Of a DNA stretch of 33,374 nt, positions 3,766 through 11,443 are shown piece after piece; the stretch's first letter is position 1, and each line of letters begins with the position of its first letter. The DNA is from a virus. A program made the position numbers and the translations under genes. Under the pieces are notes generated by a model that saw only the letters and a list, made by a program, of their open reading frames with translations, made no database searches and was not told the origin of the DNA. Location of the stretch: IMG/VR virus record IMGVR_UViG_3300035703_000286, positions 1 to 33,374 of that record; one strand, 5' to 3'.

Positions 3766-3993
3766 ATGCCTTATTCTCTCATTATTGATGATGAATGGGG
3801 CGTTCCATACGCCCTCAAGACTTTTGAAACCATTCAAGACGTGCATGATGAAATTAGGACAATGGATGAAGCATTAGACGATGTGGGGCCAGGTGCTGCC
3901 TACGCTATTCGCTGCATTATTGATCAGCTCAAAGAAATTGTCCACGAGGCTGAAGAAGAGCCTGAAACTATTCTTGATCGCCCTGCTTTCTGA
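3766..3993 (+). CDS. Acidic hypothetical protein, 75 aa
   Basis: ATG 3766 is preferred to the overlapping TTG at 3760. The product is strongly acidic and helical (DVHDEIRTMDEALDDVG, IDQLKEIVHEAEEEPE). Its acid charge and small size resemble many phage inhibitor or DNA-mimic proteins, but that is only an analogy. No family is recognised. Confidence 0.55.
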   Translation: MPYSLIIDDEWGVPYALKTFETIQDVHDEIRTMDEALDDVGPGAAYAIRCIIDQLKEIVHEAEEEPETILDRPAF

Positions 3994-3996
3994 ACC

Positions 3997-4296
3997 ATGT
4001 TGACCATTTCCACTTATCAAGACAACGGCCCGTATTTCCCTCCCACTAAAGGCCGCTATCAAGCGGCCCGCTTGAGAGACCTTCTCTTCCACGTCAGGCA
4101 AGCGATGGAGGATAGGGAGGACACTATTGCCATCTTTGACCCACAAGACAATTGCAAAGCTATCTGGCGCAGGGATGTTGAAGGCCACATAGACAGCGCT
4201 GGTGATGCCATCATTGATCATGAAGGCTATGAGCTGATGCGCCCTGATATCAAGGAACAATGGTTATGGAAGAGGCTTCAGGAGGTAATGAAATAA
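3997..4296 (+). CDS. Hypothetical protein, 99 aa
   Basis: ATG 3997, three bases after the previous stop. It is mixed alpha/beta: an N-terminal Tyr/Pro-rich part, a central helix (ARLRDLLFHVRQAMED), then TIAIFDPQDNCKAIW, which looks like a strand-turn-strand. Its last codons contain AGGAGG, the best Shine-Dalgarno in the area, serving the next gene. It overlaps that gene by TAATG at 4294-4298. Confidence 0.55.
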   Translation: MLTISTYQDNGPYFPPTKGRYQAARLRDLLFHVRQAMEDREDTIAIFDPQDNCKAIWRRDVEGHIDSAGDAIIDHEGYELMRPDIKEQWLWKRLQEVMK

Positions 4297-4706
4297 TGGG
4301 CACTAATTACTATCTGCACGCTCCTAAGTGTTTTCATTGCGGCAAAGAAGAAGAACCTCCTTTGCATCTTGGCAAAAGCTCTTATGGCTGGTGCTTTAGC
4401 CTCCACGTCTATCCAGAAGATGGTATCAACAATTGGCAACAACTATGGAGCCGCATTGATTATTTAACGCAAAATCATCACTATGAAATAAGAGATGAAT
4501 ATGGAGGCTTTGTTGATAACGGAGAATTCTTCTCCATTGTCTGGGACAGGAGCGGCAAGCCTGATAGGCTTTTCGACAAACAATGGCTAAGGGATAACTA
4601 CGCAGAAATAGGGCCTTACGGTCTTGCCAGACATGCTTTACTTGTAGGGCATTGCATAGGCCATGGTAAAGGGCCTTTTGATTACATCATTGGAGAATTC
4701 TCTTGA
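4296..4706 (+). CDS. Conserved phage protein with zinc-ribbon-like start, 136 aa
   Basis: The start is fixed at ATG 4296 by the AGGAGG sequence about 10 bases upstream. It begins MGTNYYLH and has a CFHCG pair followed by LHLGKSSYGWCFSLHVYP; I recall this arrangement from a family of small phage proteins of unknown function. The CxxC could bind zinc with other Cys or His (CIGHGKG near the C-terminus). The middle is aromatic and polar with no enzyme motif. It overlaps the DUF3293 gene by TTGA. Confidence 0.65.
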   Translation: MGTNYYLHAPKCFHCGKEEEPPLHLGKSSYGWCFSLHVYPEDGINNWQQLWSRIDYLTQNHHYEIRDEYGGFVDNGEFFSIVWDRSGKPDRLFDKQWLRDNYAEIGPYGLARHALLVGHCIGHGKGPFDYIIGEFS

Positions 4707-5053
4707 ACAAAAAGCTTCGCCAAGCCTTTGAAAGCACCATCCTTCTTTCTTCGGGCTCCCCATGGGAGCCTTCTTCTTTGCCTTGTTTTGTTATCTCTGC
4801 TTGCTGCCCCTACAGTCTGCCCTTTGACTCTGCCCGTGACTCTGCTCTTCACCACGAAATGAAAGGCTGGCTGGAGCTACTAGGCGCATCTCATGAGGAG
4901 ATCATCGGGCAATCGCCTGACGGAGCTTGGCAAGAGCCTTGCTGGGCTATTTATGGCATCACAGAAGGACAAGCGAAGCGCTTGGGCAGGCTTTATCAGC
5001 AATGGGCAGTGTTTCGCTTTGATGAGCAGGGGAGAACAGTATTGGCTTGTTGA
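4703..5053 (+). CDS. DUF3293 family protein
   Basis: TTG start overlapping the previous stop (TTGA); no other start leaves the domain intact. The 116 aa match the DUF3293 pattern: FVISACCPYS near residue 30, an early Asn/Ser-rich turn, a helix (HHEMKGWLELLG), the WQEPCWAIYGI segment, and a final helix-strand pair (AKRLGRLYQQWAVFRFD). The family's function is unknown, although members occur in phages and bacteria. It is the last gene of the leftmost small-gene run, closed by the terminator at 5062-5083. Confidence 0.75.
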   Translation: MNKKLRQAFESTILLSSGSPWEPSSLPCFVISACCPYSLPFDSARDSALHHEMKGWLELLGASHEEIIGQSPDGAWQEPCWAIYGITEGQAKRLGRLYQQWAVFRFDEQGRTVLAC

Positions 5054-5061
5054 AAGCAAAG

Positions 5062-5083
5062 AAGCCGCCCTAAGGCGGCTTTT
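5062..5083 (+). terminator. Intrinsic terminator
   Basis: AAGCCGCC-CTAA-GGCGGCTT with an 8-bp perfect stem and following TT, nine bases after the DUF3293 stop. Confidence 0.8.
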
Positions 5084-5127
5084 GATGGTTATGGTTGGAA
5101 AGGAATCGCTAGCCTTGTATTGGATCC

Positions 5128-5197
5128 GGCCAAGGTTGTATCAGAAAAAATTGGAACTGGCCAAGGTCGTATCAGACCCGGCCAGAGTTCTATCAGG
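5128..5197. repeat. Three imperfect 18-base direct repeats (GGCCAAGGTTGTATCAGA type)
   Basis: Copies at 5128-5145, 5159-5176 and 5180-5197; the third is the most divergent (GGCCAGAGTTCTATCAGG). Spacing is irregular (31 and 21 bases). They begin about 45 bases after the terminator and open the gene-free region. Candidate protein-binding sites. Confidence 0.7.
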
Positions 5198-5266
5198 CTT
5201 ATTTTATACCATTTCATCACATCATCATATCATCACACTGCCGTTATATGCGCATACAGACATGAA

Positions 5267-5298
5267 TAGTACAGGCGTACTATAGTACAGGCATACTA
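5267..5298. promoter_or_regulatory. Two abutting palindromic 16-mers, operator-like
   Basis: TAGTACAGGCGTACTA (5267-5282) is a perfect 6-bp inverted repeat around AGGC. TAGTACAGGCATACTA (5283-5298) follows directly with one arm mismatch. Adjacent dyads of this size are typical binding sites for dimeric repressors or replication initiators. Confidence 0.65.
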
Positions 5299-5346
5299 GC
5301 CCGAGGCGAGGGCGATTCCCCGGTTCTTCGATGGGGAATAGGGAGA

Positions 5347-5405
5347 ATATACCCTACCTAGCGGCCGTAGATATACCCTACCCAACAAGCGTAGATATAC
5401 CCTAC
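5347..5405. repeat. Three ATATACCCTAC direct repeats, 24-base period
   Basis: Exact copies at 5347-5357, 5371-5381 and 5395-5405, each start 24 bases after the last. The last two share the longer core GTAGATATACCCTAC. Regular spacing suggests an array of binding sites rather than chance. Confidence 0.75.
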
Positions 5406-5540
5406 TGGTGACGGCCTTAGGAGAGGCTTACTTGTGGCCGTGCTAAGTGAGGCTCACTTGTGGCCGTGCTAGGTGTCTCCTACTGGTGGCGGCCTTAAAA
5501 GTAAGCCACTGGTGGCGTGCTGATTCCACTTGCCTACTGG
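5402..5540. repeat. Degenerate TACTGGTGGCGGCCTTA / ACTTGTGGCCGTGCTA repeats
   Basis: Two nearly identical 23-base units at 5423-5445 and 5449-5471 (one difference) are flanked by related CTACTGGTGACGGCCTTA (5402-5419) and CTACTGGTGGCGGCCTTA (5480-5497), and a further diverged copy near 5507-5523. Each contains the core (C/T)ACT(T/G)GTGRC. The arrangement looks like a decayed tandem array. Confidence 0.65.
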
Positions 5541-5541
5541 C

Positions 5542-5620
5542 GCGATTCTGCCGAGCTTCAGTGAGACTAACTGCCGCGTGTGGCTGCCTACTCTCGCTAG
5601 TGCGATTCTGCCGCGATCGC
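5542..5620. repeat. GCGATTCTGCCG repeat pair and one HIP1 octamer
   Basis: GCGATTCTGCCG occurs at 5542-5553 and 5602-5613. The second copy runs directly into GCGATCGC at 5613-5620, the highly iterated palindrome (HIP1) overrepresented in many cyanobacterial genomes. One copy proves little by itself but fits a cyanobacterial host. Confidence 0.5.
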
Positions 5621-5665
5621 CTACGCTTATCGTTCCGCCATGTTTGTGCTGCCTACTGCCTGGCG

Positions 5666-5761
5666 CTAGTTGAGCCCTACCGCGAGGCACTAGTTGAGCC
5701 CTACTGTTTAGCGCTAGTTCTCTCTCACTGTTTAGCGCTAGTTGAGCCCTACTGTTTAGCC
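5666..5761. repeat. Four-copy tandem repeat, exact 24-base period
   Basis: CTAGTTGAGCCCTAC occurs at 5666-5680, 5690-5704 and 5738-5752, with a variant (CTAGTTCTCTCTCAC) at 5714-5728. The linker between units is mostly TGTTTAGCG. A partial fifth unit continues after 5761. Because 24 is a multiple of three, long frames cross the array on both strands and encode repetitive peptides, which I regard as spurious. Confidence 0.85.
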
Positions 5762-6112
5762 CTAAGTGTAGATATTTCAATACGTAACGCCGCTGGCAGT
5801 TATGGCGCTTCCAATGGTATGGGCGCTGATTGTTGCGGATTGTTGCAACGGTTGACCGTTTGGCGGGAGAGATGGCACGCGTGTGCGTGCGATCGTCTCT
5901 CTGCTGAGCACTGCGCGCAGTCTCTCCCTTTTGATAAGCCTGGCTTGTCATTTCGCTGCGGATCGGGCACTGATAAGCGTAGGCGCTTATGACCCGCCAA
6001 ACCAGCGCTGACTGATCGCCCGTGCTTATCGCAGGTGCTTTGCCCCTTTGCAAACGCTTGTGGGGCCTGTAGTGTTCCCTCAGAACCTTGAAAACCGAAA
6101 AGCAACGACACC
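5762..6112. other. Non-coding stretch with GATAAGC sites and a dyad
   Basis: No convincing gene. ATAAGCG-TAGG-CGCTTAT (5973-5990) is a perfect 7-bp dyad. Its half-site GATAAGC also occurs at 5933-5939 and 5972-5978, and inverted as GCTTATC at 6024-6030 and 5625-5631. These could be operator or origin-type sites. The two long frames here (plus strand 5447-5992, minus strand 5469-6053) have no recognisable protein character. Confidence 0.5.
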
Positions 6113-6224
6113 GAACGCCGCAAGCGTTCGCGCGCGGGCCCTTTGTGGTCGCCGTGATGGCGCGGGGTCAACTCCCGCCACGCGCTTTGCCGGTTTTGTG
6201 CCGGCCCTTCCCTCTCTTTTATCT
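6113..6224 (+). promoter_or_regulatory. GC-rich structured leader of the Ser/Leu-rich gene trio
   Basis: Several short stems lie between 6113 and the ATG at 6225: GAACGC-CGCAA-GCGTTC (6113-6129), a GCGGG/CCCGC arm around GTCAACT (about 6160-6180), and a CCGG...CCGG pair just before the coding region. The second looks superficially like a tRNA T-arm, but no complete cloverleaf fits. It is likely a folded 5' untranslated region; its role is unknown. Confidence 0.35.
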
Positions 6225-6977
6225 ATGGCTACCCTCTCGCACACTGCGGCGCTCCTCCTCTCCTCCCTGGAGACTGCTGAGCGCTCTAGCGGTTCTCCCT
6301 TCCTCCGTCTCTCCTCCTCTGCCCCTAGCTGGGCATCCTCTGTCATTAGAGAAGCCCACTTAAACGAGCTTCCAAACGATTCTCGTTATGAGCTCATCCG
6401 TGATGCTCTCTCGGCTCTCTCTGATGGCGCCTTCTCTGATGAGGAGGAGGCTATTGACTCGATTGATGAGCTCTCTCTCGATCTCGTGCCACACAGAACC
6501 ACGGAGCTTCTCCAGTGGTTCGCTGATTACGCAAGCCGTCTCTCCTCCTGCGATGAGGCTCTAGAAAGTGGCCGCATCTCTGAGCTCTCCTCCTATGAGC
6601 TTCTCTCTGAGGGATTCCGCGTGGGAGCTGAGGAGATGCTCTCCTCGCTTATCTCCTCTCTAGAGGAGGAGCGTCTCTCAGTGTTCAACCCTGACACTGA
6701 CAGTCAGCTCCTCTTAGGTGACTCTCACGGAATCTATATCCCCAAGCGCTGGGCTGATGAGCTGGAGGATGAGGAGGAGGCAGAGTCCTACTCCGTCTCC
6801 TGGGAGGATGTCCTCATCTGTCAAGCCGGCCCAGAATCTGAGAGCTACTGGGAAGCATGGGATGCAATCCTCAGAGATGCTCTCTGGAATGAAAACGGAG
6901 AGGATTGGTGCCTCCTGCAGAACGGCGATCTCTGGGCCGTTCGCTCTGATGTAGAGATTCCTGAGGATGCATTCTGA
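6225..6977 (+). CDS. Ser/Leu/Glu-rich acidic protein with extreme CTC/GAG codon bias, 250 aa
   Basis: ATG 6225, first Met in frame after the structured leader. The first 35 residues are Ser/Ala/Leu-rich. The middle is helical and very acidic (DEEEAIDSIDELSLDL; LEDEEEAESYSVSWEDV). The C-terminal part has a more protein-like motif, YWEAWDAILRDA followed by LLQNGDLWAV, which I have seen in uncharacterised phage proteins. Codons are drawn strongly from CTC, TCC, TCT and GAG, unlike all other genes in the window. The stop overlaps the next start (TGATG). Function unknown. Confidence 0.7.
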   Translation: MATLSHTAALLLSSLETAERSSGSPFLRLSSSAPSWASSVIREAHLNELPNDSRYELIRDALSALSDGAFSDEEEAIDSIDELSLDLVPHRTTELLQWFADYASRLSSCDEALESGRISELSSYELLSEGFRVGAEEMLSSLISSLEEERLSVFNPDTDSQLLLGDSHGIYIPKRWADELEDEEEAESYSVSWEDVLICQAGPESESYWEAWDAILRDALWNENGEDWCLLQNGDLWAVRSDVEIPEDAF

Positions 6978-7159
6978 TGAGACGGCTCTCCCTCTCCTCT
7001 CGTGAAGCTCTCTACGTCCTCTGGGCTCTAGAGGAGGCTCTCCTCATCTCAGAGCCTGAGGAGGAGGAGCTCCTCCTCTCTCTCATCTCTCGCTTAAACG
7101 GAGCCGCAGCTCCGTTCTCCTCTGCCTCTGCCTCTCGCTCTCGCTCTCTCTCCTTGTGA
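6977..7159 (+). CDS. Small Ser/Leu/Glu-rich protein, 60 aa
   Basis: ATG 6977 overlaps the preceding TGA. Ser, Leu and Glu make up 35 of 60 residues. The N-terminal two-thirds could form two amphipathic helices (SREALYVLWALEEALLI; EEEELLLSLISRL); the tail is a Ser/Ala/Arg low-complexity stretch. It shares the CTC/GAG word bias of its neighbours. Function unknown; co-translation with the upstream gene is likely. Confidence 0.55.
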   Translation: MRRLSLSSREALYVLWALEEALLISEPEEEELLLSLISRLNGAAAPFSSASASRSRSLSL

Positions 7160-7273
7160 CAACAATCCTCCTCCCACTACGGCCAATTCTGCCGGGAGAG
7201 GCTCTCCCTCCTCTCCCTCCTAGTTGGTCGTCTCCCGCTCCTGTTCTCCCTTCTCTCCCTCGCTTCTCCTCCC
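7160..7273. other. Spacer inside the CTC/GAG-rich block
   Basis: 114 bases with no gene. It carries the same CTCTCC/CTCCTC word bias as the coding parts, so the bias is a property of the DNA and not only of codon choice. It contains GGGAGAGG-CTCTCCC, a short dyad near 7195. Confidence 0.4.
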
Positions 7274-8161
7274 ATGCTTGACGCTCTCTCTTCTCTTTAC
7301 TCTGCCTCTCCTCTCTTTACCATGCTCTCCTCCTCTCTCCTCCTCGATCGCGTTAAGGCTCTCTCTGAACTCTCTGGAGATTGGTTTTTCTATGAGCCTA
7401 GAGAGCGTCTTTTAAACTCCGGCTCTGGCTCTCCTCTGGAGTGGCAGAGCGTCTCGCCAAATGAGGCAGACTCTCTCTCTATGGGAGAGCTCGATTCCTA
7501 CAGCTCCTCTCTCTGCGCTTCTCTCGGTTCCTCTGTAACGAAACTATCCCCAGAGGAGGCAATCCTCCTACTGTGCGAGCGCAAACTCTGGCGGCAGTGT
7601 TCCCTCCTCTGGCTCTCAAACCATTGCACAAGCGGTGATTACTGCGGCGCTCCTCATACGCTCTCTAATTGTCGCGTTTTGCTAGAGGAGTTTGGCGGCT
7701 CTCCTCAGTGCCGTGAAGCTTACGGCTCCCATGGCTCCTCCTCTGTAGCTATAGACCCTCGCTACCTCTCTAATGAGCTCCTAGAGAGTCTCCAGAGCCT
7801 GGAGAGTTATCCCGTCCTGGATGAGAGCGACTGTTCAGAGCTAGAGCTAGAGCTCCAGTGCGAGGCTTGGGAGAGCTGGGCTGAGCGAGAATTCCAACGT
7901 GCTCTAGAGAGCCGTCTTTCCTCTCTCTGTGGTGATGAGACGGCAGAGGAGATTACGGAGAGTCTTGACTCCGATCAGCTCTTCTCCTTGTTTGAGAGCC
8001 TCAGAGAAGAGGCTAACGAGTATTGGGAGAGCCAGAGCTCCCCTGATCAGTGGATCGACGTAGAGAGGGTCACAGAGAAAGTCTCCTCCTCTCTCCTCCT
8101 CTCGCTCCTCTCCTCCTCTGCCTCTGAGGAGCTCTCCCGTCTCCTCTCTCCTCTCCTCTGA
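7274..8161 (+). CDS. Ser/Leu/Glu-rich protein with Cys cluster, 295 aa
   Basis: ATG 7274. The ends are Ser/Leu-rich low complexity. The middle is more protein-like and holds several Cys and His (LLCERKLWRQCSLLW, NHCTSGDYCGAPHTLSNC), which could bind metal. The C-terminal third is acidic and helical (CEAWESWAEREFQRAL; EEANEYWESQ). The YWESQ/WID ending recalls the YWEAWDA motif of the 250-aa protein upstream, hinting at common ancestry, but this is weak. Function unknown. A strong terminator follows at 8186-8216. Confidence 0.65.
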   Translation: MLDALSSLYSASPLFTMLSSSLLLDRVKALSELSGDWFFYEPRERLLNSGSGSPLEWQSVSPNEADSLSMGELDSYSSSLCASLGSSVTKLSPEEAILLLCERKLWRQCSLLWLSNHCTSGDYCGAPHTLSNCRVLLEEFGGSPQCREAYGSHGSSSVAIDPRYLSNELLESLQSLESYPVLDESDCSELELELQCEAWESWAEREFQRALESRLSSLCGDETAEEITESLDSDQLFSLFESLREEANEYWESQSSPDQWIDVERVTEKVSSSLLLSLLSSSASEELSRLLSPLL

Positions 8162-8185
8162 CGCCCATAGGATGACAGCCCCATC

Positions 8186-8216
8186 AGCCCCACCAGTACT
8201 GGTGGGGCTTTTGTTT
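8186..8216 (+). terminator. Strong intrinsic terminator
   Basis: AGCCCCACCAGT directly followed by its exact reverse complement (8186-8209), then TTTTGTTT. This is a 12-bp perfect dyad (GTAC would form the loop), 25 bases after the trio's last stop. Confidence 0.9.
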
Positions 8217-8405
8217 CGCTTGAAAAAGGGATCAATAGCCACATTTGCACTGTAACTGTCAGTATTAAGTTATATTTCAATCCGCAGTGTTAAGCTTTGC
8301 AACAATGCTTGACAAGCTGCAGCGCAGTAGCACGGGCTTTTGTCGTTGCGGGGCTGGGGTATCCCCCTCAAAAAGTGGCGTCATTTTTCATCTAGAAAAT
8401 CGCCT
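8217..8405. other. Intergenic spacer, nothing recognised
   Basis: About 190 bases between the trio terminator and the leftward nuclease gene. Short frames exist but lack start context or protein character. GGGG...CCCC dyads near 8350-8375 might end the leftward gene, without a clear U-tract. Confidence 0.3.
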
Positions 8406-9065
8406 TTATTTGCCAAGGAATGGAACAGAGTCTATGAAATGTTGTTTATCGGGAACTACCACACGTTTTTGTTGAGAGGGGATGAGGAGGGGAATGCATT
8501 GATGAGCGAGGGATTGATCTAGGGAGTCTATATGTTGAATCAGGGGAGCTTTAGCAAGGAACCATTCACCTTCTAGGCGAAGTTCTGCGAATTGCCGATG
8601 AAGATGTAATTCCTGTTTAGGGCTATCCACCTGATTGAGTGCCAGCAAAAAAATTCTGGGAATAGCCGTAAGGAAAGTTTCAAATCGGCCATGAAGGGAA
8701 GATGAATAGCCAATTTTAACAAGAGAAGAATCAACAGGATTGGCAATGTAATAAATAATATGCTGACCAATGACACCATGAATATCGCGTGCATATTTTT
8801 GCCTCCGTTGGCGTTCTTTTTCTTGAGACACTATATTGCCGCTGCGAGATGGGCGAGAATAATTCAAGGCCGCTTGGCGTCGACATGCTTTACAGGCAGA
8901 CTTGAGTCCGTCAGACGTTTTTAAATCTTTTCCAAAAGCAGAGAAAGAAAGAAGAACCTTGCATTGAGAGCAGATCTTCAGTTGCTGAGTGAGGAGATCA
9001 GAATGCGCGAGCATGTTTTGCCTGTAAAGGCCACGATTGTAGCCAAAGCTTTTGACGAGAGACAT
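8406..9065 (-). CDS. Zinc-finger plus GIY-YIG/T5orf172-like nuclease
   Basis: 219 aa on the minus strand from ATG 9065. An N-terminal zinc-knuckle (CSQCKVLL ... CKAC, about residues 33-62) is followed by a basic linker and a GIY-YIG-like domain of the T5orf172/Mug113 type: YYIANPVDSSLVKIGYSS, then RFETFLTAIP, and ELHLHRQFAELRLEGEWF with His and Glu in the usual places. Such genes are mobile homing-type nucleases in phages. It stands alone in reverse orientation between large non-coding spacers and its base use differs sharply from the trio beside it, consistent with independent acquisition. Target unknown. Confidence 0.75.
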   Translation of the reverse strand: MSLVKSFGYNRGLYRQNMLAHSDLLTQQLKICSQCKVLLSFSAFGKDLKTSDGLKSACKACRRQAALNYSRPSRSGNIVSQEKERQRRQKYARDIHGVIGQHIIYYIANPVDSSLVKIGYSSSLHGRFETFLTAIPRIFLLALNQVDSPKQELHLHRQFAELRLEGEWFLAKAPLIQHIDSLDQSLAHQCIPLLIPSQQKRVVVPDKQHFIDSVPFLGK

Positions 9066-9923: not shown

Positions 9924-9963
9924 TCCATCGTCTTGTTTGAGCTAGCCTGCTTAAGTTGATCGC

Positions 9964-9987
9964 GCCCCGCCCAGCGGGGCTTTGTTG
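9964..9987 (+). terminator. Terminator-like hairpin just before the reductase start
   Basis: GCCCCGC-CCA-GCGGGGC followed by TTTGTTGT, ending five bases before the ATG at 9992. If it works as a terminator it would attenuate transcription into the reductase gene. Confidence 0.6.
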
Positions 9988-9991
9988 TCTC

Positions 9992-11443
9992 ATGGGACTT
10001 AAGAAGAAAGCAAAATGCGAACCAATTGCTCGAACAGGACGAGTGCAGGATTGGCTTGACAGTCCCGAGGGTCGCCTCGCAGTGAGCTGCACCACGTTTG
10101 TAGTGGAAGATTCAATGGAAGGACCGGATGGAATTGAGGCGTCGTGGCGTTTTGTTTCCCATGCTCTTCGCAATGCCGCAGGAGCGGCTGTAAACCTTTC
10201 CAAGCTTCGCCCAGAAGGCGAAGACAATGGAAAAGGGCTTGTAGCCAGTGGCCCTGTAAGCTTTGCGACTATTTACAGCAAATTGAACGAGGTATTGCGT
10301 CGTGGCGGTCAATTTCGCAATGGCGCCGTTACTTTGCATCTTGATTATGACCATCCAGATGCAATTAAATTTATCAATGCATCGCGGAGCGAGCTGCCGT
10401 GGGTAAAGCGTTCTTTAACCGTTGATGAGCAATTCTTTGAAAAAGCTTCGTCTGAATTAATCAGCGCATTGCTTAAGGGAATTGGCAATGGAGATATGTG
10501 GCTAACTAAGAAGCGTTTTGATGCAAAGGGGGAGCGTATTTGGCCGAACGTTTGCGAAGAGATTTGGCTGAAGCATCGTGGCACTTGCCTGCTTCAGCAC
10601 GTCAATCTTGGCGCTTGTAATTTTGATAATTTGCAAGGCGCTTTTATTGAAGGCATGCAGCAGTTAGTTGACCTCCATCCCAATACTGGAGTGGGTGACA
10701 CTGGGGAATATCTTCCTCCCACTATTGATAAACAAATTGGCTTGGGTGTGCTGGGCTTAGCCAATTTCCTTGCCATTCATGGCATTAGCTATGAAGACTT
10801 TGGAAAGGCCCTTGAAGCTTATTTGATGGATGATCCTCATCCTTGGTGTCACTATTGGAAAGACATGCCTGCCGGCGAAGCCGTGTGGCAATTAGACCAA
10901 GGCATCCAGAAGGCCGCTGAAATTGCTCGTGAGCATGGCATGGAACGTGCTTTCTGCATTGCTCCCACTGCATCATGCTCCTATCGCTACCTCGACACTC
11001 GCGGCTTTACCACTGCTCCTGAAATTGCTCCTCCCATTGGTCGCATTGTTGACCGGGATTCCGGTACATTTGGCGTGGAGAGTTTTGACTATGGCGAAGT
11101 GGAAATTGCTGCTGAAGTGGGCTGGGGAAATTACAAGCGTGTTGCTGATGGCATTGTTTCTCTTTATCAACGCACTGGTCTTTTCCATGGCTATTCTTTT
11201 AATAGCTGGTCAGACTTGGTAATTTATGACGAAGCATTCCTGCGTGATTGGTTAGAATCTTCTCAGACGAGCCTCTATTACAGCCTGCAAGTCCTGCCTG
11301 ATACTCAGCGTAAGGACGATGCATATGCTGCATTGGACGACGATTTTAAGAGCATGTTTGGCTTGGACGAAGAGTCTGAAGCTGATGGATCTTCTGCGTC
11401 TTGCAATTTAGAGGCTGGCTTTTGCGCTAGTTGCGCTGAATAA
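9992..11443 (+). CDS. nrdA: Class I ribonucleotide reductase alpha subunit, compact phage form
   Basis: Reduces ribonucleotides to deoxyribonucleotides for phage DNA synthesis, with the beta subunit encoded next. At 483 aa it is much shorter than the usual 700-800 and begins at the N-terminal redox Cys (VSC, residue 33), so the ATP-cone and N-terminal helices are absent. Visible landmarks: C199 (RGTC) and C209 (NLGAC) in the active-site region, PTASCSY after residue 325, the class I radical-path Tyr pair Y429-Y430 (LYYSL), and a C-terminal CASC thiol pair (478-481). The expected N-x-C-x-E finger-loop pattern around the catalytic Cys is not intact. Such compact class I enzymes are known in cyanophages. 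ATG 9992 is chosen because the frame upstream is a terminator hairpin. Confidence 0.9.
   Translation: MGLKKKAKCEPIARTGRVQDWLDSPEGRLAVSCTTFVVEDSMEGPDGIEASWRFVSHALRNAAGAAVNLSKLRPEGEDNGKGLVASGPVSFATIYSKLNEVLRRGGQFRNGAVTLHLDYDHPDAIKFINASRSELPWVKRSLTVDEQFFEKASSELISALLKGIGNGDMWLTKKRFDAKGERIWPNVCEEIWLKHRGTCLLQHVNLGACNFDNLQGAFIEGMQQLVDLHPNTGVGDTGEYLPPTIDKQIGLGVLGLANFLAIHGISYEDFGKALEAYLMDDPHPWCHYWKDMPAGEAVWQLDQGIQKAAEIAREHGMERAFCIAPTASCSYRYLDTRGFTTAPEIAPPIGRIVDRDSGTFGVESFDYGEVEIAAEVGWGNYKRVADGIVSLYQRTGLFHGYSFNSWSDLVIYDEAFLRDWLESSQTSLYYSLQVLPDTQRKDDAYAALDDDFKSMFGLDEESEADGSSASCNLEAGFCASCAE

Follow-up and report, generated by a model that had tools for sequence, protein, structure and literature searches.

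Why should a few adjacent phage genes be spelled almost wholly in the same two or three short words? The question is raised by positions 6225-8161 of a viral contig of 33,374 nucleotides (IMG/VR record IMGVR_UViG_3300035703_000286, positions 1 to 33,374); we refer to this whole stretch as the window. An earlier note, made from the sequence alone, described a three-gene block there that is rich in CTC, TCC, and GAG, and suggested a selected DNA motif, an RNA-level role, or a low-complexity protein family as the cause. The finding is stranger than first described: the spelling, which we call a dialect, is independent of the genes that are written in it, and a second dialect is used at the same site. 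We are nearly certain of this phenomenon, namely that a swappable cassette keeps to a word dialect whatever genes it carries and that another dialect exists at that same site.

The block contains 207 CTC and 95 GAG (8.1 and 3.3 times the rest of the window), and by the same comparison CTCCTC (40 occurrences) is enriched 62-fold, CTCTCC (22) 55-fold, and GAGGAG (15) 18-fold. The sum of 302 CTC and GAG words compares with a mean of 54 (standard deviation 7.4, maximum 70) in other 1937-bp stretches of the window. Both words are abundant on the same strand, as the earlier note stated, if unequally so: the ratio is about 2:1 here and 3-5:1 in the type-2 blocks described below. Relative to the rest of the genomes, the fraction of leucines encoded by CTC rises from 0.17 to 0.65, of glutamates encoded by GAG from 0.39 to 0.90, and of serines encoded by TCC or TCT from 0.36 to 0.72. 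The encoded proteins are 16% serine, 16% leucine, and 12.5% glutamate, and the 60-residue product does contain 35 of these residues, as had been counted. The bias sets in near the first ATG, which is about 200 bases in from the left border of the exchanged cassette (below), and stops before a strong terminator-like hairpin, much as first described. The last 60 bases of the block are indeed enriched, with 15 overlapping CTC rather than 16. The features of the block are as follows.

6210-8161, plus strand: extent of the CTC/GAG dialect, from k-mer counts and the density profile
6225-6977, plus strand: P1, 250 amino acids; C-terminal domain similar to phrog_21544, a domain common to many phages
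6977-7159, plus strand: P2, 60 amino acids, with the pattern LSxxEAxxxLWALExAL..EPEEEELL, conserved in all type-1 blocks
7156-7281, plus strand: PP, a proline-rich ORF of 41 amino acids with a GTG start and a TGA end; conserved RPxLPGEALPPLPP
7274-8161, plus strand: P3, 295 amino acids, similar to phrog_3906; relatives in actinophages and Tunturi_5
8186-8209, plus strand: terminator-like hairpin of 10 pairs, then a T-rich tail, which ends the unit

The block is thus four predicted genes, not three. Positions 7160-7273 had been taken for spacer DNA saturated with both kinds of word; this stretch holds 16 CTC, contains neither GAGGAG nor GAGAGC, and belongs to the small conserved gene PP, whose ORF overlaps the stop codon of P2 and the start codon of P3. 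The PP motif is found with small variation in three related phages (L003, L005, and L019), and in L006 PP is fused to P2. The AlphaFold model of P1 had no match in the PDB, and a fold search with P3 had none either; only uncharacterised phage proteins resemble P3. The models of both proteins are mostly ordered, and invariant alignment columns are scattered along both. PADLOC matched no known defence family, Rfam matched only a tRNA, and we found no sigma-70 promoter-like site for the block; the terminator-like hairpin is present.

The window is a fragment of an S-CBS4-like cyanophage: its portal protein is 64% identical to that of Synechococcus phage S-CBS4, and gene order is shared. The block lies between small early genes on one side and ribonucleotide reductase genes on the other, in the following surroundings.

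5347-5764, no strand: direct-repeat array with short units, upstream of the slot
5970-5990, no strand: imperfect palindrome CTGATAAGCGTAGGCGCTTAT (GATAAG...CTTATC), read directly
6018-8277, no strand: exchanged cassette, from blastn of the sister phage L179 against the window
8406-9065, minus strand: endonuclease VII-like / T5orf172 endonuclease, a candidate homing endonuclease at the slot border (Pfam and PHROG matches)
9956-11443, plus strand: ribonucleotide reductase large subunit, the right-hand landmark of the slot

The sister phage L179, whose reductase beta subunit is 100% identical, has ordinary genes where the window has 6018-8277: positions 3979-6017 and 8278-8398 align at 87-90%, and nothing aligns in between. 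As with morons, then, the cassette is present or absent between close relatives at a single site with conserved flanks. (In L179, at 4461-5985 and 6499-7476 (minus strand), ordinary genes occupy the slot and a transposase-like ORF follows farther right.) Among 30 contigs in which the slot is covered, which were picked by reductase similarity and not at random, one has the CTC/GAG dialect (dialect A), five have the second dialect (dialect B), and 24 have neither. G007 and G008 (both about 75 kb; G007 has a 127-base end repeat) each contain exactly one such block. To judge from these comparisons, the block is an accessory early-region cassette of S-CBS4-like cyanophages that is swapped as a unit in a variable slot.

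We discarded S-CBS4 itself as a block-free control. Its record (NC_016766.1, "complete genome") ends inside the gene that corresponds to about 4.2 kb of the window and restarts just before the reductase, so that about 5.5 kb matching 4.2-9.7 kb of the window, including the slot, are absent from the record. Because it is broken exactly at the slot, the record says nothing about the presence or absence of the block. In G001, G007, G008, and S-CBS4, the GC skew changes sign at the slot, from negative to positive, with gene direction unchanged, which might mark a replication landmark. We also noticed that the reductase beta gene of G001 (55208-55924, L075) has one in-frame TGA in its matched stretch.

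If the bias were incidental to this isolate, homologues of its proteins should turn up in ordinary codons. We found relatives of P1, P2, and P3 in at least 11 further contigs (type-1 blocks), and every full-length P1 homologue that we found, down to 52% identity, is in DNA of the CTC/GAG dialect, with 60-91 CTC and 39-62 GAG per kb of matched sequence. Where nothing but the C-terminal domain of P1 is shared, the phages use ordinary words (0-29 CTC and 0-41 GAG per kb), and P3 relatives at about 30% identity (in L007 and Tunturi_5) are spelled ordinarily as well. The arrangement of the block varies: in L003 P2 follows P3, the L019 block contains an additional gene (P4) as an insertion, P1 of L023 has two additional genes before it, and in L002 the small gene is lost and P3 is only 58% identical although P1 is 94% identical. 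The inserted genes of L019 and L023 are also CTC-rich, but the L023 pair, taken by itself, does not pass the codon-permutation test described below. One type-1 block (L095, 4580-4748 / L106, 7487-7600) has a P3 that seems to be rearranged, as a fragment of P3 matches in reverse orientation where the contig ends. We rejected a host or plasmid origin, as there were no relatives of P1 or P3 in 84,980 genomes and no DNA-level likeness to the block in plasmids or cultured phages.

When we scanned viral contigs for the dialect pattern instead of for a protein, we found blocks without any P1, P2, or P3 (L098, L111, L102, L107, L109, L114, and later L196). These type-2 blocks comprise up to 4.5 kb of CTC/GAG words, and they encode GP88 (PF17338) as the main gene, along with some eight small proteins and a further small, membrane-like one that L023 and L024 have too. 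Three of these phages have portal proteins that are 70-94% identical to the window's, and their blocks are at the same place. The trinucleotide profiles of the two non-homologous gene sets correlate at 0.73, and with control genes at only 0.18. Because gene sets without P1-P3 are spelled in the same words, the dialect does not come from any one protein family. The second dialect (CTG/CAG with GCC/GGC, in GC-rich blocks) occupies the same slot, and its main gene is also GP88. The dialect-B protein is 51% identical, and leucine that is CTC in one dialect is CTG in the other. The GP88 of cultured phages has ordinary spelling; the window has no GP88. That GP88 exists in other spellings, including the second dialect, supports rather than refutes a word-level cause.

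To separate words from codons, we shuffled synonymous codons within each gene, which holds the protein and the codon counts constant. Out-of-frame CTC and GAG were in excess in 13 of 13 contigs (z = 7.9-13.1, versus 2.2 for control genes), and the excess is present in both out-of-frame phases. By the same test, dialect-B genes are depleted of CTC and GAG (z = -4.0) and enriched in their own words (z = +10.0; control, 1.3). Density is maintained while positions turn over: down to about 52% protein identity the relatives keep the density of words, and P1 of the window and of L023 each have 60 CTC, of which 27 are at common positions. Synonymous sites inside the words are nevertheless conserved. 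Four-fold degenerate C is conserved at 0.90 inside words versus 0.60 outside, and the last base of serine TCC at 0.99 if TC follows versus 0.53 otherwise. Four-fold C in the structural and reductase genes of these phages is conserved at 0.47 inside versus 0.56 outside words, so the in-word conservation is peculiar to the block. The block's proteins are under ordinary purifying selection too, as four-fold sites are only 0.49 identical at 86% protein identity. Given the excess beyond codon counts, the sharing of words by unrelated genes, and the second dialect, we conclude that selection targets nucleotide words, not codons and not a single protein family. The selected motif that the earlier note listed among its explanations, taken as a nucleotide word, is thus supported.

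Several other causes were weighed against such selection. That a low-complexity Ser/Leu/Glu-rich protein family simply yields the words agrees with the amino acid composition, but the same three proteins (P1-P3) with the codon use of the phage's other genes would contain 94.6 ± 8.5 CTC and GAG, not the 284 observed; unrelated proteins carry the same words, the block's protein families are spelled ordinarily elsewhere, and the P1 and P3 models are mostly ordered, with scattered invariant columns. We give this explanation, another of those in the earlier note, almost no weight. Adaptation of codons or codon pairs to the tRNA pool during infection would account for the preference for Leu CTC, Glu GAG, and Ser TCC/TCT, but it does not explain an excess that persists in both out-of-frame phases with codon counts fixed, or the words in untranslated leaders and junctions, and the phage's own tRNAs (Ile-GAT and Leu-TAA) do not read the dialect codons; it is improbable. 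A small set of words might also serve to evade host restriction, which the earlier note had listed, or CRISPR; the lack of CTCGAG in the pooled type-1 blocks (0 versus 43.6 expected) would fit this. However, CTCGAG is avoided genome-wide (0-1 versus 4-8 expected), which makes it a separate trait and led us to drop its absence as a part of the dialect; type-2 blocks do not avoid it (18 versus 13), GAGCTC is plentiful (9 in the window's block), and the pattern of the block is one of enrichment, not of site depletion confined to the block. Restriction escape is a very improbable cause of the dialect. A further explanation is that the words are functionless, either because mutation or gene conversion confined to the slot homogenises them or because the cassettes came repeatedly from a donor replicon with such a composition throughout its DNA. 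Low-entropy tandem arrays that differ between phages do adjoin the block, two dialects at one slot would be natural for a drifting process, and a strongly context-dependent mutation process could mimic part of the evidence. But such a process does not predict the conservation of in-word synonymous sites or of words that span codon boundaries, nor the convergence of two unrelated sets of genes on a single dialect, nor the non-dialect DNA inside the same cassette. P1 alignments have almost no gaps down to 57% identity; slippage therefore does not drive the pattern, and we rejected an origin from simple-sequence DNA, for which length changes between relatives should be seen. No donor was found in the 84,980 genomes, plasmids, or cultured phages. 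We consider this explanation unlikely.

Are the selected words then read on DNA or on RNA? DNA reading, double- or single-stranded, could involve sites for a recombinase or homing enzyme, a primase that recognises trinucleotides, a modification enzyme, or packaging, and a high density along the cassette would ease priming, recombination, or marking. In keeping with this, coding DNA is enriched in each word as well as in its reverse complement, the cassette is swapped between phages with an endonuclease at its border, the differences in order and content (L002 without the small gene, L003 with P2 elsewhere, L019 with P4 in addition) look as if segments had been joined at words, and the GC skew turns at the slot in G001, G007, and G008. 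However, the dialect tracks the apparent transcription unit and not the recombination borders, intergenic DNA is strongly strand-biased, and about 150 sites per kb is far above any priming need. Because the block is missing from most sister phages, an essential role as an origin or in packaging is unlikely, and we set that candidate aside. Overall, reading on DNA is doubtful. Reading on RNA fits better because CTC greatly exceeds GAG between genes (126 versus 27 per kb in type-2 blocks) and because the dialect spans from the leader to the terminator-like hairpin; these patterns somewhat favour the RNA-level role that had been raised before, whose probability we would put a little under even. 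Against it, GAG is enriched out of frame in coding DNA, and a reader that recognises only CUC would have no use for GAG; most sister phages have no dialect in the slot; and word scores in coding DNA are symmetric between the strands (0.82), which could suggest double-stranded DNA. Control genes are similarly symmetric (0.5-0.75), and we dropped symmetry as evidence for a DNA reader. RNA structure was rejected as the driver: predicted folding is only slightly better than in trinucleotide-preserving shuffles, so words rather than structure seem to matter.

Our best explanation, held tentatively and at somewhat less than an even chance, is a cassette whose word density is read on the transcript. 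Regardless of the encoded proteins, the transcription unit in its entirety, with its leader, its junctions, and each of the three frames of its coding sequence, would be under purifying selection for the density of CTC and GAG (along with TCT, AGA, and overlapping forms). The words would be a density signal bound by a cognate factor, from phage or host, that binds or processes RNA and sets the fate of the messenger, by its stability, translation, or placement; different dialects would suit different readers. RRM-type RNA-binding proteins, which act in RNA fate in cyanobacteria (PMC9333190, PMC11500504), would be natural candidates for the reader. More broadly, the chances are nearly even that dialects form an information layer atop the genetic code that does not depend on the proteins encoded, in which a cognate factor reads dense trinucleotides along the cassette's transcript and at least two dialects can spell the same genes.

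How does the block compare to known systems? Morons have foreign base composition, and like morons and other accessory slots the block consists of genes that are unusual in composition and can be swapped at a fixed place, with an Endo VII-type endonuclease adjoining. We know of no moron that is held to a word dialect by a synonymous-site constraint common to unrelated genes. A cyanophage example of an accessory slot with a free-standing homing endonuclease is F-CphI of S-PM2 (PMC6083498). HIP1 (GCGATCGC) is the highly iterated palindrome of cyanobacterial genomes (PMC4390886), and it has a single site in the window, outside the block. HIP1 and the block are alike in that a short word is in excess of codon and composition expectation, in coding as well as non-coding DNA from the same host group, at positions that are not fixed. 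In contrast, HIP1 is a single palindromic octamer that occurs throughout the host genomes and has a link to methyltransferases, whereas non-palindromic trinucleotides saturate a single phage cassette of 2-4.5 kb, one per genome. Chi, DNA uptake sequences, and KOPS are also orientation-biased short words enriched beyond codon use, but they are about 8-12 bases long and genome-wide, while the words of the block have 3 bases, occur about 150 times per kb, and are confined to one apparent transcription unit. We found no such phenomenon in the open-access literature, and to our knowledge no described signal (codon bias, uptake words, Chi, HIP1, or restriction avoidance) behaves likewise. The constraint is strong enough to reshape both synonymous choice and amino acid composition, yet it is confined to one cassette, is common to unrelated genes, and comes in two versions at one site. 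A reader of the words, if found, would reveal a new way for a phage to mark some of its own genes.

We also made several observations on the surrounding DNA. CTCGAG is nearly absent, and TCGA is below expectation, from the window and from the whole contigs G001, G004, and G007; this genome-wide shortage is probably restriction avoidance. In L102, L098, L111, and L196, a hairpin (such as GGAGGCC..GGCCTCC) precedes many type-2 genes, and a pyrimidine tract lies directly before the ATG, where a Shine-Dalgarno sequence is not evident. The type-1 relatives that we read have repeat arrays at the same place as the window's, with different units. Short tandem repeats border the slot in the window and in L005 (6270-6465), L006 (8510-8850 and 10975-11225), and L003 (9600-9790 and 11990-12118), and the repeat units are entirely different in each phage (CTTAACC, GTTAGTGAGGTTCACCGC, GGCGCCGATCGCCCT, and others). 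Variant forms of the GATAAG...CTTATC palindrome lie upstream of several type-1 blocks, including those of L021, L005, and L019, and this palindrome is possibly an operator or promoter element.
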